64,000 nucleotides of DNA from Sphingomonadaceae bacterium 3R27E2-A (lineage in GTDB: Bacteria; Pseudomonadota; Alphaproteobacteria; Sphingomonadales; Sphingomonadaceae), in NCBI GenBank assembly GCA_005503165.1, contig SCNT01000023.1, positions 1 through 64,000 of the forward strand, written 5' to 3'. The first letter of the stretch is position 1. Every line of letters begins with the position of its first letter. A model generated the notes under the pieces. The model was given only the letters and a program-made list of their open reading frames with translations. It was not told the DNA's origin and ran no database searches. Of this stretch, positions 4,340 to 41,543 are shown piece after piece. The translations under genes and the position numbers were made by a program.

Positions 4340-4747
4340 TCAGAACCACATATCCCTCACGACGCGACCGTCGGGCGGCAGATCCTCGAAACTCTCGAGC
4401 CCTTCGAAATGATCGATCGGCAGGTCGGCGACCGCGTCGGGATCGGCCAGCCGGATGTTCACCGCCATGCGCCGCCGACCGTCCTCCTCAAGCCGCAGTC
4501 CGCGCCAGGCGAGCAAGCAGCCGCAGGTCGGGCAGAAATGGATTTCGAGCGCCGGGTCGGCCTTGCCGACGCGGGTAAAGGTGCGCGTCACGCCGTTGAG
4601 GACGATCCGCCCGCCCTCATAATCATAGGCCCAGAGCGCCCCGTAGCGACGGCAGAGCGTGCAGTTGCATGCGGTGACCGAGCCCGGATCACCGGTAAGC
4701 GCCCAGCCTGCCTCGCCGCAGAGGCAGCTGCCCTCGAGCGCGGTCAA
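4340..4747 (-). CDS. GFA-family zinc-binding protein
   Basis: 135-residue member of the GFA (glutathione-dependent formaldehyde-activating enzyme / CENP-V) family. Zinc cysteines are at CLC (8, 10), CNCTLC (27, 29, 32) and HFCPTCGC. Members are often annotated as S-hydroxymethylglutathione synthase, but most are of unproven function. The start appears to be TTG, overlapping the TGA of the upstream acyl-CoA synthetase as TTGA, which implies translational coupling. No better in-frame ATG precedes the first cysteine pair. Confidence 0.85.
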   Translation of the reverse strand: MTALEGSCLCGEAGWALTGDPGSVTACNCTLCRRYGALWAYDYEGGRIVLNGVTRTFTRVGKADPALEIHFCPTCGCLLAWRGLRLEEDGRRRMAVNIRLADPDAVADLPIDHFEGLESFEDLPPDGRVVRDMWF

Positions 4748-6300
4748 TTTACCATCCGCTCATAACCCTCCCAATAGGGGGCGCGGAGGTCCTTGCGCAG
4801 GATCTTGCCGCTGGCGTTGCGCGGCAGCGCCTCGATCACGTCGATGCTGCGCGGGCATTTGAAGGGCGCGATGCGCTCGCGGGTCCAGGCGATGATGTCG
4901 TCCGCATCGACGCTCATCCCGGGCCTGGGGACGACCACCGCCTTCACTGTCTCGCCCCATTTGGCATCGGGGATGCCGATCACCGCCACCTCCTGCACCG
5001 CCGGGTGCCCGAAGATCGCGCTCTCGACCTCGGCCGGATAGACATTCTCACCGCCCGAGATGATCATGTCCTTCACCCGGTCGTGGATATAGAGATAACC
5101 GTCGGCGTCGAGATAGCCCGCATCGCCGGTGTGGATCCAGCCGTCGGCGGTCATCGTCTTCGCCGTCGCCTCGGGCAGGTTCCAGTAACCGAGCATATTG
5201 TTCGACGAGCGGGTGACCACCTCGCCGACCTCGCCCACCGGCAGCTCCCGGCCGTCGTCGCCGAGGATGCGGATTTCGACGCCGGGGAGCGGCTTGCCCG
5301 CCGAGCGCATGCGCTGGTTGCCCTCGGGATCGTGATCCTCGGGCGGCAGCATGCAGATGGTGCCCGTCGTCTCGGTCATGCCATAGGCCTGAATGAAATC
5401 CGCGCCGAACATCTTGATGCACTGACGGAGCAGCTCGAGCGGGATCGGCGCGGCGCCGTAGAGGATATATTTGAGGCGGCCGAAATCGGTCTCGGCGCAG
5501 CGCGGATGCATCAGCAGCATCTGGAGCGCCGCGGGGACGATGAAGAAGCGCGTCACCCCATGGTGCTCGACCGCGTCGAACACGCCGTCGGGGTTGAACT
5601 CGGCGAGGATGACGCCGGGGAGCCCCGCGGCGAGCGCCATGATGCCGAGACCGGTTCCGCCGATATGCGCGCAAGGCATGGCGACGAGCACCGCCTCGTC
5701 ATCCTCCCATTCGGTATAAGGCATGTCGAGGTCGCTCGAATTGCGGCGCAGCGCGAAGAGGTTGCGGTTCGACAGCACCGCGCCCTTGGGATTGCCGGTC
5801 GTGCCCGAGGTGTAAAGCTGGAGCACCGCATCGTCGGGGCCGGCCGCATCGAAAGCCGCGCGCGGGGTAGCGGCGATCAGCGCGCGCGCCTCGCCATCGG
5901 TCAGGATTTTCGGGTCCTGCTCGAGCTTGTCTGCGAGCTGCTGCGACACGGCCTCGAACCCCGGGCCGGTGAAGAGCATCTTCGCCCCGGTGTCATTCAG
6001 AACATAGGCCCATTCGGTCGGCGACAGGCGCCAGCCGATCGGCGCCATCACGATGCCCGCGCGCGCGGCCCCGAAGAAGAGCTGGAAATAGAGGTCGCTG
6101 TTCTTGCCGATCCACGCGATGCGGTCGCCCTTCACGAGCCCCGCGTCGAACAGCGCGCTGGCGATCTTCGCGGTCAGTTCGTCCAGTTCGCCATAGGTGT
6201 AGACGCGGTCCTCCTCACGCAGCGCGATCCGGTCCGGCCGGTCGGCCGCCCAATGGGCGATGAACTCGTCGAAGGTCAGAAGGTCCGCCAGATCTTTCAT
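4744..6300 (-). CDS. Class I adenylate-forming acyl-CoA synthetase
   Basis: 518-residue ANL-superfamily enzyme that adenylates a carboxylic acid and transfers it to CoA. Motifs in order: AMP-binding loop YTSGTTGNPKGA (about 163-174), AYGMTETTG, HTGDAGYLDADGY, the hinge DRVKDMIISGGENVYP and the C-terminal catalytic-lysine motif PRNASGKILRKDL. ATG 6300 is preceded by GGGAGAG. It lies first in a two-gene unit with the GFA protein. Substrate chain length cannot be read from sequence; the general form fits long-chain or aromatic acid CoA ligases. Confidence 0.92.
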   Translation of the reverse strand: MKDLADLLTFDEFIAHWAADRPDRIALREEDRVYTYGELDELTAKIASALFDAGLVKGDRIAWIGKNSDLYFQLFFGAARAGIVMAPIGWRLSPTEWAYVLNDTGAKMLFTGPGFEAVSQQLADKLEQDPKILTDGEARALIAATPRAAFDAAGPDDAVLQLYTSGTTGNPKGAVLSNRNLFALRRNSSDLDMPYTEWEDDEAVLVAMPCAHIGGTGLGIMALAAGLPGVILAEFNPDGVFDAVEHHGVTRFFIVPAALQMLLMHPRCAETDFGRLKYILYGAAPIPLELLRQCIKMFGADFIQAYGMTETTGTICMLPPEDHDPEGNQRMRSAGKPLPGVEIRILGDDGRELPVGEVGEVVTRSSNNMLGYWNLPEATAKTMTADGWIHTGDAGYLDADGYLYIHDRVKDMIISGGENVYPAEVESAIFGHPAVQEVAVIGIPDAKWGETVKAVVVPRPGMSVDADDIIAWTRERIAPFKCPRSIDVIEALPRNASGKILRKDLRAPYWEGYERMVN

Positions 6301-6583: not shown

Positions 6584-7804
6584 GTGATCAAGACCCGCTT
6601 GCCGATCCTGTTGCTCGCTTCGGCGCTGACGCTTCCGGCCGCCGCGCAGACGAACGGCGATTCCGAGATCGTCGTCACCGGCCGATCGCTGAAGGAAACC
6701 GCCGACGACCTGGCCGCGTGCCTCGCGCGCAACTGCCCGCCCGACGAGGATATCGCCGCCAGCCTCGCGCATGCCGAAAACCAGCTGCTGCAGGGCGATT
6801 ACAAGGATTCGCGGACCACCCTCCTCAAGTCGATCGGCCGCAACCGCAAGCATGGCGACAAATTTCCGGTCGAGGTGTCGGACCTGTTCCGCGCCAACAG
6901 CCGCGTCGCCGAACATGTGGGCGAAGCCAAAAATTTCCAGCTGTCGGTACTCGACATGCGCAACACGCTGAAGGCCGGACTGGGAGAGAAGGACCCGCGC
7001 GTGATGGTCGCGCAAATCGAGGTCGGCGACAGCCGCGCCAAGCTGGGTTTCCCCGACGAGGCCGAGCGCATCTATCAGGACGTCGAGAAGCAGGCGCTGG
7101 CCAACGGCCAGAACCGCGTCGCGATGTTCGCACGCGTGCGCCAGGCGTTGCTGGCCCAGACGCGCGCCGAAGCGTCGAACCTGGACAGCGACCGCAAGGA
7201 TGCGCGCAAATTGCTGGACGACATCATCAGCAACCCGCTGCCCGGCGCCGAGGAGTTTGCGATGGCGGCGCAGGTGATGCGTGCGCGCAACGACCGCAAA
7301 AAGGGCGATGCAAGTTCGACCGAGGCAATCCTGCGCGAATTCGCCGAGCGTGGCGGGACGACCCGGCCAGTGTTGTTGTTCAGCGAGCCGATCAAGCGCA
7401 TCGACCTGTCGCAGGACTTTGGCAACGAACAGCCGCCGGCCAATACGCTGCAAAGACTGACGGCGCTCAACAGTGTCGGCAAATGGGCCGATGTCGGCTT
7501 CTGGATCAACGCTGACGGGCGGGTCAGCGATGTCGAGGTGCTGCGCGCCGAAGGCACCAAGCAGTGGCTGAAACCGGTGTTCGACCAGATCAAGACCCGC
7601 GTCTACGCCCCGCTGCGCCGCAGCGACAATGATGCGAGCCCGGGCTTTTACATGATCGAGCGCTACACGTTGACCGCGCGCTGGACCGACGACGCGACGG
7701 GCACCAACATGCGCCGCCGCGAGGCGACGCCTCGCATCGAGCGGCTGGACATCACCCCGCATAACTACCAGCGTCCGGTCGTCGAAAGCGGGGCCACCGG
7801 CTGA
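6584..7804 (+). CDS. Secreted TPR-like protein with TonB-C-like end, paralogue 1
   Basis: 406-residue exported protein of unknown function. A signal peptide ends near residue 22 (LPAAAQ) and is followed by EIVVTGRSL, which resembles the segment after the signal peptide of sphingomonad TonB-dependent receptors. Residues ~40-250 are helical and TPR-like (SLAHAENQLL, RVAEHVGEAKNF, AKLGFPDEAERIYQDVEKQA). The last ~110 residues (GFWINADGRVSDVEVLR to [14 protein letters not shown]) look like a TonB C-terminal domain. The start is GTG after CGGAG. A close paralogue follows 72 bases downstream, clearly a tandem duplication. Confidence 0.75.
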   Translation: MIKTRLPILLLASALTLPAAAQTNGDSEIVVTGRSLKETADDLAACLARNCPPDEDIAASLAHAENQLLQGDYKDSRTTLLKSIGRNRKHGDKFPVEVSDLFRANSRVAEHVGEAKNFQLSVLDMRNTLKAGLGEKDPRVMVAQIEVGDSRAKLGFPDEAERIYQDVEKQALANGQNRVAMFARVRQALLAQTRAEASNLDSDRKDARKLLDDIISNPLPGAEEFAMAAQVMRARNDRKKGDASSTEAILREFAERGGTTRPVLLFSEPIKRIDLSQDFGNEQPPANTLQRLTALNSVGKWADVGFWINADGRVSDVEVLRAEGTKQWLKPVFDQIKTRVYAPLRRSDNDASPGFYMIERYTLTARWTDDATGTNMRRREATPRIERLDITPHNYQRPVVESGATG

Positions 7805-7876
7805 CCCGCATGGCTTGACGCTACGGCGCCTTCGTGAGACCTTTCGCGCTCAAAATAGCGTGAAGGGAGAAGGTTG

Positions 7877-9130
7877 ATGCTTCGCCTTGTTTTTCTCGCC
7901 CCGCTCGCCGCGACGCTCGGTGTCGCGCCAGCGCTTGCCGCCGATGGCGACGGCCCCATCATCGTCACCGCACAGCCTCTCGCCGAGACCGCCGCGGCGC
8001 TCGCGGCCTGCCTCGCGCGAAATTGCCCGCCCGACCAGGATATCGCGGCGACGCTCGCCCACGCCGAGAACCAGTTCGTCGCCGGCAGCTACAAGGCGGC
8101 GCGGACCACCCTGCTCAAATCGATCGACCGCAACGAGGCCCATGGCCGCGCCTTTCCTATCCCGGTTTCCGATCTGTACCGCGCCAACGGGCGCGTCGCC
8201 GAACATATCGGCGAGCCGCGCAGTTTCCAATCGTCGGTGCTCGAGATGCGCGACACGCTGCGCGAGGGGCTAGGCCGCGACGATCCGCGCGTGCTGGGCG
8301 CGCAGGTCGAGGTCGGCGACAGCCGTGCCAAGCTGGGTTTTCCCGCCGAGGCTGCACGCATCTATGCCGATGTGGAGAAGGAGGCGCTCGGCAAGGGCCA
8401 TAATCGCATCGCGATGTTTGCGCGGCTGCGGCAGGCGGTGCTTGCGCAGGTCGCCGCCGAGGACAGCAACCTCTCTGCCGAGCGCAAGCGCGCCCGCGCC
8501 ATGCTGGAGGCGATCGTCGCCGATCCGCTGCCCGGCACCGACGACCTGCGAATGGTGGCGCAGGTGTCGCTGACGCGGATGGACCGCAAGGCGGGCCGCG
8601 AGGAATCGACCGCGGCGCTGATGCGGCAATTCGCCGAGCAGGGCGGCGCCACCCGCCCGATCCTGATCGCCGCATCGCCGATCAAGTCGCCCGGCATCGA
8701 CACCGTCCGCAACGCCGCGAACCAGAGCCTGGCCGACAGCAGCACCAGCGCTGCTTTCCTCACCATCGCGTCGGGGGACACGTCGCGGCGGCTGGCGGCG
8801 TTGAACTCGATCGGCAAATGGGCCGACCTCGGCTTCTGGGTGACGCCGTCGGGAAAGGTATCCGAAGTCGAGGTTCTGCGATCGAGCGGTGGGACAGGCT
8901 GGCTCGCCCCGGTCGTCGCGCATCTGGAGGGCCGCGTCTATGCACCGCTGAAAGCCAACACGGACGGGGTGAATCCGGGCTTCTACATGATCGAGCGCTA
9001 TTCGCTGACCGCCCGCTGGACCGACGATGCGACGGGCACCAACATGCGGCGGCGCGAGTTCACACCGCGGATCGAGCGGCTGGACATCACACCCGAAAAT
9101 TATGGACGGCCGATGACCGACGGCGCCTAA
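7877..9130 (+). CDS. Secreted TPR-like protein with TonB-C-like end, paralogue 2
   Basis: 417 residues, by eye about two thirds identical to the preceding gene, with the same architecture: signal peptide (ends near PALAADG), [11 protein letters not shown] after the cleavage site, TPR-like middle and a TonB-C-like C-terminus ([28 protein letters not shown]). It has an extra ~18 residues before the TonB-C part. ATG 7877 is preferred over the TTG one codon earlier because GGGAGA lies six bases upstream. Its stop overlaps the stop of the convergent methyltransferase gene. Function unknown. Confidence 0.75.
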
Positions 9131-40180: not shown

Positions 40181-40575
40181 TGGCCGGTCTTGTTCCGCGC
40201 GCGCTGGAGTTCGGGATCGGGTTCGAGGTCGGGCACCTTCGCCGTGGTGGGCGGCAACGGCACCGCCTTCGCCGGTGCATCCACGACGGCGGCCGGCGCC
40301 TGTTCGTCGATCGGAGTCGTTTTCGGCTGGACGCCCAATTCCTCGAGCGGCGCGCCGGTGCCCGCATCGGCCTGTCCCGCCGCGGCGGCATTGGCGGTCG
40401 CGGCGGCCTCGCCCGCGACCTGCTCGCGCGCGCGATCGCCGATCAGCCCGGCGAGGCCGACGAGCAGCAGCACCGCCATCACGCCGGCGATGCCGATCTG
40501 CAGCCGCCGCATCGAATCGCTCGGCCCCCACGCCTCGGGCGGCGGGGCGGAGGTCGGGGGTTTCTTCATGTTCAT
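40177..40575 (-). CDS. Small single-helix membrane protein
   Basis: 132 residues with a cytoplasmic Pro-rich start (KKPPTSAPPPEAWG), one transmembrane helix at about 32-53 and a long Ala/Pro/Glu-rich tail. No family recognised. Its ATG overlaps the cysK stop (ATGA) and its stop overlaps the GldG-like start, so it probably works with that protein. Confidence 0.65.
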   Translation of the reverse strand: MNMKKPPTSAPPPEAWGPSDSMRRLQIGIAGVMAVLLLVGLAGLIGDRAREQVAGEAAATANAAAAGQADAGTGAPLEELGVQPKTTPIDEQAPAAVVDAPAKAVPLPPTTAKVPDLEPDPELQRARNKTGQ

Positions 40576-41543
40576 GCCGCCAGCCCCTTCGAAGCAAGCC
40601 ACGCGGGATTGTAGAGCGTCGAGAGATAGCGGAAGCCGCTATCGCAGAGGATCGTCGCGATGCGCTTGCCGGGGCCGAGCCGTCGCGCGAGCGCCATCGC
40701 CCCCGCGACATTGATTCCCGACGACAGGCCGAGGCACAGACCCTCCTCGTCGAGCAGCTGGCGCACCACGTCCAGCCCTTCGGCGTCGGAGATGCGGAAC
40801 TGCGTGTCGATCGGCGCGCCTTCGAGGTTCGCGGTGATGCGGTTCTGACCGATGCCCTCGGCGACGCTCGACCCCTCGGGCTTCAGCTCGCCGCACTGGT
40901 AATAATTATAGAGCCCCGCGCCGTGGGGATCGGTGAGCGCGACGGTGATCTTCTCATCCTTGGCCTTGAGGCCCAGCCCGGTGCCCGCGATCGTGCCGCC
41001 GGTGCCCGCGGCGCAGGTGAAGCCGTCGATGCGGCCCTCCATCTGCGCCCAGATCTCCTCGGCGGTGCCGAAGATATGCGCCTTGCGGTTGGCGATATTG
41101 TCGAACTGGTTCGCCCAGATCGCATTGTCGGTTTCCTCGGCGATGCGGCGCGAGGTGTGGACGAAATGACCGGGGTTGGCGAAGGGCGCGGGCGGGACGA
41201 GCACCAGCTCGGCGCCGAGCGCGCGGATCGTCGCCATCTTCTCGGCGCTCTGGTTGTCGGGCATGACGATGATCGTCTTGTAGCCCAGCGCATTGGCGAC
41301 GAGCGCGAGCCCGATGCCGGTGTTGCCCGCGGTGCCCTCGACGATCGTGCCGCCGGGCTTCAGGCTGCCGTTCGCCTCGGCATCGCGGACGATATAGAGC
41401 GCGGCGCGGTCCTTCACCGATCCGCCGGGGTTGGCATATTCGCACTTGCCCCAGATTTCGCAGCCGGTCGCTTCGCTGGGGCCTTTGAGCAGGACAAGCG
41501 GCGTGTTGCCGATCAGCTCGAGGCTGGTTTGCGCAATGGTCAT
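40572..41543 (-). CDS. cysK: Cysteine synthase A
   Basis: 323-residue PLP-dependent O-acetylserine sulfhydrylase. PLP lysine is Lys44 in NPGGSVKDRA; the substrate loop EGTAGNTGIGLA and phosphate loop GTGGTIAGTG are present. ATG 41543 begins at the family start (TIAQTSLELIGNTPLV). It is the first gene of a three-gene unit and divergent from a TonB-dependent receptor. A homologous methionine-pathway beta-synthase role cannot be excluded. Confidence 0.9.
   Translation of the reverse strand: MTIAQTSLELIGNTPLVLLKGPSEATGCEIWGKCEYANPGGSVKDRAALYIVRDAEANGSLKPGGTIVEGTAGNTGIGLALVANALGYKTIIVMPDNQSAEKMATIRALGAELVLVPPAPFANPGHFVHTSRRIAEETDNAIWANQFDNIANRKAHIFGTAEEIWAQMEGRIDGFTCAAGTGGTIAGTGLGLKAKDEKITVALTDPHGAGLYNYYQCGELKPEGSSVAEGIGQNRITANLEGAPIDTQFRISDAEGLDVVRQLLDEEGLCLGLSSGINVAGAMALARRLGPGKRIATILCDSGFRYLSTLYNPAWLASKGLAA

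Follow-up and report, generated by a model that had tools for sequence, protein, structure and literature searches.

A tandem pair of secreted TPR proteins from a Sphingomonadaceae genome with a conserved TonB-box-like N-terminus and a TonB_C-like C-terminal domain

The means by which numerous receptors share a small supply of TonB have yet to be explained. Group B colicins are bacteriocins that are taken up from outside and made without a signal peptide. They are also known non-barrel proteins with a TonB box, and in the non-receptor protein colicin M this box (ETLTV) occupies residues 2-6 (consulted portions of the review PMC11658791). In the E. coli BtuB complex the box lies beside TonB residues 226-231, with its highly conserved Val adjoining Phe230 in the last strand of TonB (consulted portions of PMC6118199). 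For the receptor DdvT of Sphingobium SYK-6, the accessible text of PMC6874591 reports alanine mutants according to which IIVT acts as the TonB box: V42A and T43A lower growth and conversion, the double mutant resembles the deletion, and IIVT is required for full uptake.

Here we describe two paralogous proteins, encoded by ORF A and ORF B, which are a new architecture assembled from known parts. Like sphingomonad TonB-dependent receptors such as DdvT (in the same sections of PMC6874591), they have a signal peptide followed by an I[IV]VT[AG] segment; however, whereas the receptors consist of a Plug and a 22-strand barrel, ORF A/B lack both and specify a soluble protein of 385 residues. The closest precedent is offered by the group B colicins, which share with ORF A/B a non-barrel structure and a TonB box in an unstructured N-terminus (a predicted one in our case), and the colicin M box is as close to the start of the protein as is the Q-E-I-V-V-T-G seen at the mature start of several Novosphingobium members of the family. 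Unlike these colicins, which come from outside the cell, ORF A/B are made by the cell itself with a signal peptide and contain TPR and TonB_C-like parts; no toxin domains were detected in them by Pfam. The fold of their last domain is common to TonB (Pfam TonB_C, TIGR01352), but they lack its membrane anchor, proline-rich spacer and YP, and score under the curated cut-offs. Their superhelix of 11 helices resembles TPR proteins such as BtubC and the kinesin light chain, a likeness that concerns the repeat fold only and implies no functional link. In the literature searched, which lay largely outside subscription journals, we found no description of a periplasmic TonB-box protein with TPR or TonB_C parts. 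The initial annotation of this DNA, which knew of no described system of this form, has to be qualified by the group B colicins as known non-barrel bearers of an N-terminal TonB box.

The two genes lie in tandem on the plus strand within the window, by which we mean the whole 64-kb stretch of DNA analysed, and their products are 59% identical over 406 aligned columns. ORF A (6584..7804) encodes a secreted TPR/TonB_C-like protein of 406 aa from a GTG start with GGAG immediately 5' of it. ORF B (7874..9130) spans 418 aa when counted from a TTG, and the ATG at 7877, which is placed behind a purine-rich stretch, is the likelier start; 72 nt separate the stop of ORF A from this ATG. The upstream ORF (4744-6300) is divergent and the called downstream genes are on the opposite strand. 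A scan for promoters and terminators gave 0 and 2 sites, respectively, not above shuffled sequence, and a search of a plasmid collection returned no match.

Both paralogues display the same order of elements, namely a signal peptide, the motif, a helical start, a helical middle and a C-terminal domain. The signal peptide of ORF A covers residues 1-21 (6584..6646), with A-x-A before Q22 as judged by rule and eye, and that of ORF B (7877..7939) ends in ALA before A23, as judged by eye. In Novosphingobium aromaticivorans, the periplasm of which has been studied by top-down mass spectrometry, periplasmic proteins are documented to be cleaved after A-x-A, with the mature Gln being converted to pyroglutamate (PMC3608174, in part); the ORF A/B family was not seen by name there. 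The motif, EIVVTG in ORF A (6665..6682, mature residues 7-12, predicted disordered) and PIIVTA in ORF B (7955..7972), comes after the hydrophobic core of the signal peptide and the A-x-A, and therefore belongs to the mature protein by rule and eye. In ORF A it is followed by the TPR-like helical domain (mature residues 15-234, 6689..7348), the TonB_C-like domain (mature residues 267-343, 7445..7675) and a tail past the last TonB_C strand (7676..7801), of which the first part is conserved and includes one extra predicted strand (mature residues 363-368). The region of ORF B aligned to the TonB_C-like domain of ORF A lies at 8780..9010. The tandem arrangement, the place of the motif just behind both signal peptides and its presence in three receptors of the window (41844, 56331 and 61851), all of which the initial annotation had put forward, were borne out, as was the claim that the paralogues have no barrel: no Plug or barrel model is listed for ORF A/B at E <= 10 in Pfam, and the predicted model of ORF A is composed of a helical and a small alpha/beta part with no receptor barrel.

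We then surveyed the motif across the 4.5-Mb genome, using reversed patterns as controls. Written as codons, I[IV]VT[AG] gives 81 matches against 4 for the reversed pattern, and [DE]I[IV]VT[AG] gives 39 against 0. A Pfam scan took the 72 of the 81 matches with at least 100 aa after the motif, the other nine being too short, and in 54 of these 72 a Plug match followed (E <= 0.001). The genome holds 67 Plug matches; when receptors were picked by Plug rather than by the motif (the 30 best of the 67), [IV][IV]V[TV][AG] was present in all 28 readable cases, with T in 27 of the 28. When all 81 matches were read by eye, the only non-receptor matches directly behind a signal peptide were three, namely ORF A, ORF B and a further TPR protein (L083, see below), and the matches of the looser [IVM]V[IVM]T[AG] outside the first set yielded, by eye, no further signal-peptide protein. 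Two matches of a different kind were encountered on the way. One (L112; G000:C29, motif 40574-40587) is a weakly DUF4139-like protein (E 0.045) with EIVVTGSRIAPRED in a Gly-rich stretch that is not N-terminal, and the other (L074; G000:C1:25712) has EIVVTAQKS, again not N-terminal, within an ORF that looks by eye like a tape-measure protein, where it is probably there by chance.

We also considered whether such a motif might be general to secreted proteins of the group, which was not borne out as far as tested by two comparisons. In a relative that lacks the family (G015), 42 of the 44 [DE]I[IV]VT[AG] matches, judged by ORF length, lie in ORFs that continue for at least 590 residues beyond the motif; the two others appear incidental. 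This pattern does not detect the second TPR family, where the motif is preceded by S. A crude rule applied to the 416 ORFs called in the window and 19 loci picked out 54 signal-peptide genes. A loose match within the first 30 mature residues occurs in 17 of them, made up of 14 family members, 2 receptors and 1 other. Setting aside the family and the two receptors leaves a single gene with such a match out of 38, a count to be read with the proviso that the rule overlooks some genes, family members among them, and that the loci are partly homologous and hence not independent.

To gauge the conservation of the motif within the family, we aligned 72 homologues (ORFs of at least 300 aa with an HMM span of at least 300), of which 61 were left after removal of those with 80% or more pairwise identity. 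Near the start of the mature protein all 61 show [IV][IVLT][VI]x[GA]. A version that does not admit T at position 2, [IV][IVL][VI]x[GA], fits 59 of them, and the strict receptor form [IV][IV]VT[GA] fits 29. The pattern was widened to allow T at position 2 after the order-wide matches had been read: a narrower regular expression had found the motif in 50 of 54 such matches, and the four misses were resolved by alignment as two misplaced anchors (L263 and L288) and two cases of T at position 2 (L285 and L290). Position 3 is the least variable of the box (V in 57, I in 4), and at position 5 the 61 sequences have either G (48) or A (13). Position 4 has T in 33, V in 13 and I in 9, so that 28 homologues have a residue other than T there (V, I, Q, K, R, S or A), V or I accounting for 22 of these. 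An acidic residue (D/E) directly precedes the box in 38 of the 61. An A-x-A lies 0 to 25 residues ahead of the box in 48 of the 61 homologues, with the box 0-14 residues behind the last A-x-A in 45 of these 48, and the remaining 13 have no A-x-A within 45 residues of it. In the homologues where a cleavage site could be placed, the box thus lies behind the signal peptide and not inside it, as the initial annotation had it for the two paralogues. The box lies nearer to the A-x-A in the family than in most I[IV]VT[AG] receptors of the genome.

Ranked by conservation among 334 windows of five well-filled columns, the box is 3rd in the 61 sequences and 2nd in the 46 sequences of less than 60% identity. 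The two 5-mers above it, IERYT and RVYAP, are both in the C-terminal domain. In the alignment of 28 members the mean entropy of IVVTG is 0.82 bits, versus 2.33 for the preceding residues and, in the folded parts, 1.50 (TPR domain) and 1.47 (TonB_C-like domain), and the residues directly before the box are among the most variable. The AlphaFold2 (AF2) model built from 28 sequences has no strand in mature residues 1-10 (mean pLDDT 39), which predicts a flexible, exposed segment and fits a TonB box, given that an unbound box should be disordered. That a segment predicted to be disordered is conserved above the means of the folded domains is the main addition to the initial annotation; it looks like a docking motif, and since it is better conserved than most of the protein, a role in docking is likely.

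These data bear directly on two ways of explaining the motif away. As the motif is short, it might resemble a TonB box by chance in two proteins of one genome, but its presence in 61 of 61 homologues, together with the 81 against 4 matches of the reversed-pattern control, contradicts this, and we reject chance as very improbable. Alternatively, the segment might be a non-functional relic of a fusion that put the signal peptide and box of a receptor in front of a TPR gene, and the order of these two elements is indeed the same as in receptors. A relic would drift, however, whereas the conservation of this segment exceeds the averages of both folded domains and the full-length members extend over 16 genera, making this reading very improbable.

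The looseness of position 4 deserves closer consideration, since a T that is not strict counts against a TonB box. This objection is weakened by two lines of evidence. First, the receptors ahead of the family gene in three related Sphingomonas loci (see below) have the boxes DIVVRG or DIVVVG, showing that T is not essential in real receptors either. Second, a review states that local structure matters more to the TonB box than individual side chains do (PMC11658791, in the portions consulted). Nevertheless, the invariant pattern is a hydrophobic one with G/A behind it, and with T replaced in 28 of 61 homologues the N-terminal strand might dock on or cap something else, such as a TPR groove in a dimer or another envelope protein, its likeness to a TonB box being convergence on a short hydrophobic strand. 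We consider this unlikely: the likeness extends to the preceding acidic residue (38 of 61) and to the position behind the signal peptide, and a loose match recurs in just one of the 38 other signal-peptide genes, which come from the partly homologous, non-independent loci noted above.

The rest of the protein was characterized by structure prediction and profile searches. The AF2 model of mature ORF A (28 sequences, mean pLDDT 82.9) contains 11 TPR-like helices, followed by a helix-strand-strand-helix-strand unit and one more strand. Searches with the full-length model were topped by TPR chains, the best being the bacterial BtubC and the kinesin light chain TPR, and TPR_12 was recovered in relatives with a best E-value of 2.5e-6 (8 of 28 members at E <= 1), bearing out the TPR-like middle of the initial annotation. 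As these full-length searches were filled by TPR chains, with no TonB chain among the rows shown, the C-terminal domain (last 124 residues) was predicted alone (mean pLDDT 76.2) and searched separately. In Foldseek its top 8 rows are all TonB or FusB, the best being 1xx3 at E 3.6e-3 and none below 1e-3. In VIA-align the top 13 rows are all TonB/FusB with Z from 7.5 to 4.3, led by 9hi3 (Z 7.5, rmsd 2.9, 85 aligned) and including 1xx3 (Z 6.5, rmsd 2.4, 73 aligned). Below these come TolA domains (Z 4.1 to 3.0), with the first unrelated row at Z 3.7. All of these values are below 8 and, taken alone, middling, in a range that can mean a common arrangement only. At the sequence level, Pfam TonB_C was found in ORF B only (0.22) and tonB_Cterm (TIGR01352) in both window proteins (0.0081 and 0.0064), all under the curated cut-offs, whereas the aligned members reach 9.5e-5 for TonB_C (16 of 28 match) and 6.1e-5 for tonB_Cterm (18 of 28 at E <= 1). 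A profile comparison by hhalign of the family domain with four TonB_C domains of the genome gave a probability of 84 over 45 columns. The assignment of the TonB_C fold to this predicted domain, first made in the initial annotation, is accordingly well supported by models and profiles.

The genome encodes 4 proteins with TonB_C above cut-off, three of which look membrane-anchored by eye (L152, L153 and L154), and DYP is present in all 4; by comparison, YP at the start of the domain occurs in none of the 28 C-terminal rows of our family. Inspection of ORF A/B revealed no membrane anchor and no proline-rich stretch, the cleavable signal peptide being followed by TPR helices. Given that YPxxA, the membrane anchor and the proline-rich spacer are all missing, ORF A/B are not TonB proteins. 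A side observation concerns L155 (G000:C37:12286-12516), an apparently exported non-TonB protein whose TonB_C domain keeps DYP and which has no box at its start.

A box and a TonB_C-like domain in one polypeptide raise the alternative that the box docks on that domain in the same protein, another copy or the paralogue. The recognition between TonB and receptors would then have been converted into a latch, or into chains linked head to tail, that do not touch TonB; this is the nearest rival with a defined mechanism. It derives its force from the observation that IERYT, RVYAP and the box are the three most conserved 5-mers, and that IERYT, the single most conserved window, sits in the last TonB_C strand (mature residues 334-343), which corresponds to the box-binding strand of TonB (consulted portions of PMC6118199); moreover, tandem pairs recur (G000, G332, G100, G094 and G221). 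However, AF2 leaves mature residues 1-10 unpaired (mean pLDDT 39, as above), mutual information with APC correction over 72 sequences, a weak test, gave no convincing covariation between the box and the last strand, and the YP is missing throughout. In addition, a single copy is the rule among the 49 genomes that match in full length, and another family combines the signal peptide, box and TPR in the absence of a TonB_C domain. On this balance we regard docking on the own domain as unlikely.

This other family is represented by the 132-aa secreted TPR protein mentioned above (L083:3485-3880; G000:C7:33796-34191), whose TPR matches are under cut-off (best E 1.3e-5) and for which no TonB_C model is listed. 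It has matches in 34 of 60 relatives (E <= 0.001); 33 of these relatives belong to the genus, which is represented by 36 genomes. Thirty same-genus loci (L202-L231) were read, and 28 of them have SI[IV]VVT[GAS] directly at the likely mature start, most commonly as SIIVVTGPQ or SIVVVTAPQ, and the other two have SIIVTG or SIVVNG; in the distant homologues of G014 and G016 the motif is absent. That two secreted TPR families, unrelated to each other, both begin with a box-like segment points to a common acceptor, for which TonB is the obvious candidate.

We tentatively favor the view, to which we give slightly less than even credence, that the ORF A/B proteins work in the periplasm as soluble adaptors with a TPR domain, or as brakes, and dock on TonB via a genuine TonB box. 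Export by the Sec pathway and cleavage would leave a free, presumably disordered tail with [DETP]-[IV]-[IV]-V-[TVI]-[GA] near its start, which would add as an extra strand to the C-terminal domain of the inner-membrane TonB in the manner of receptor and colicin boxes. The TPR domain would hold a partner, with the degenerate TonB_C-like domain as a second contact surface. The partner would thereby be brought to TonB, and since competition with receptor boxes would be unavoidable, the protein might act as an adaptor or a brake on energy coupling; occupancy of TonB by the family protein would be expected to matter. The mimicry of, or competition in, TonB coupling that the initial annotation had raised is plausible, and better founded than could be known there. 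In favor of docking on TonB are the conservation and predicted disorder of the box, its counterpart before the Plug of the genome's receptors, the DdvT mutants, the least variable third position seen next to the conserved Val of the BtuB box, the second TPR family, the precedent of colicin M, and the three loci in which a receptor and a phytase precede the family gene. Several observations count against docking on TonB: T is found at position 4 in 33 of 61 members versus 27 of 28 receptors, the exported L155 has a TonB_C domain without any such tag, the gene does not adjoin TonB, ExbB or a receptor in most loci examined, several copies have in-frame stops, and the distant homologues of the second TPR family are without the motif.

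In this genome 67 Plug matches face only 4 TonB_C proteins above cut-off. A conserved TonB box on a protein of the cell's own making would single that protein out as a direct candidate regulator of the traffic between receptors and TonB, or as a means to redirect it. It is possible, although we hold it to be rather doubtful, that Sphingomonadales make their own pore-less, soluble TonB-box proteins, which set the share of TonB energy that receptors obtain or pass it to a TPR-bound partner, and that this docking tag is used by two or more TPR families of a single genus that are not related to each other. If so, the TonB box would be a portable docking tag that extends beyond receptors and colicins.

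Within Sphingomonadales 52 of 397 genomes have a match to ORF A/B, in 18 of 82 genera; 49 of these genomes, in 16 genera, have full-length matches, all of them of the family to which the window itself belongs, and G040, G041 and G237 have partial ones. A sample of 387 genomes of the class, in which no full-length member was seen outside Sphingomonadales, gave 4 matches, with the own genome and G060 (same family) matching in full and the other two covering C-terminal stretches alone. Six of the 60 nearest genomes match, one over its C-terminal part only, so the gene comes and goes from species to species. Being present in a minority of genomes, it does not belong to the general machinery of TonB coupling. 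One in-frame stop each was noted in five matches (L248, L254, L255, L259 and G123:C2:826733-827815), and the family gene may be decaying in some species. In Sphingopyxis sp. KK2 the second copy (L011:11091-11867; G026:C25:19701-20023) consists of remnants in two frames, while the first copy is open.

A search for related loci yielded 22, and in most of the loci examined there is no TonB, ExbB or receptor beside the family gene. The neighbours common to the Sphingopyxis and Novosphingobium loci have a housekeeping look; by eye we take them to include glycine cleavage genes, and in L015 they include a T2SSE ATPase and an EamA transporter. A divergent receptor adjoins the family gene in L029. In only three loci a receptor, a phytase and the family gene follow each other on the same strand (L026:5979-12298, with two family copies, L028:6078-11119 and L032:6110-11155), the phytase being identified by Pfam in all three, and the receptor by Pfam in L026 and by clustering in L028 and L032; a home-made receptor HMM built from 15 sequences missed these receptors and was excluded from counting. 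These are the loci with the DIVVRG or DIVVVG boxes, and, being closely related, they represent at best one event, with an order of genes suggesting a phytate-uptake operon.
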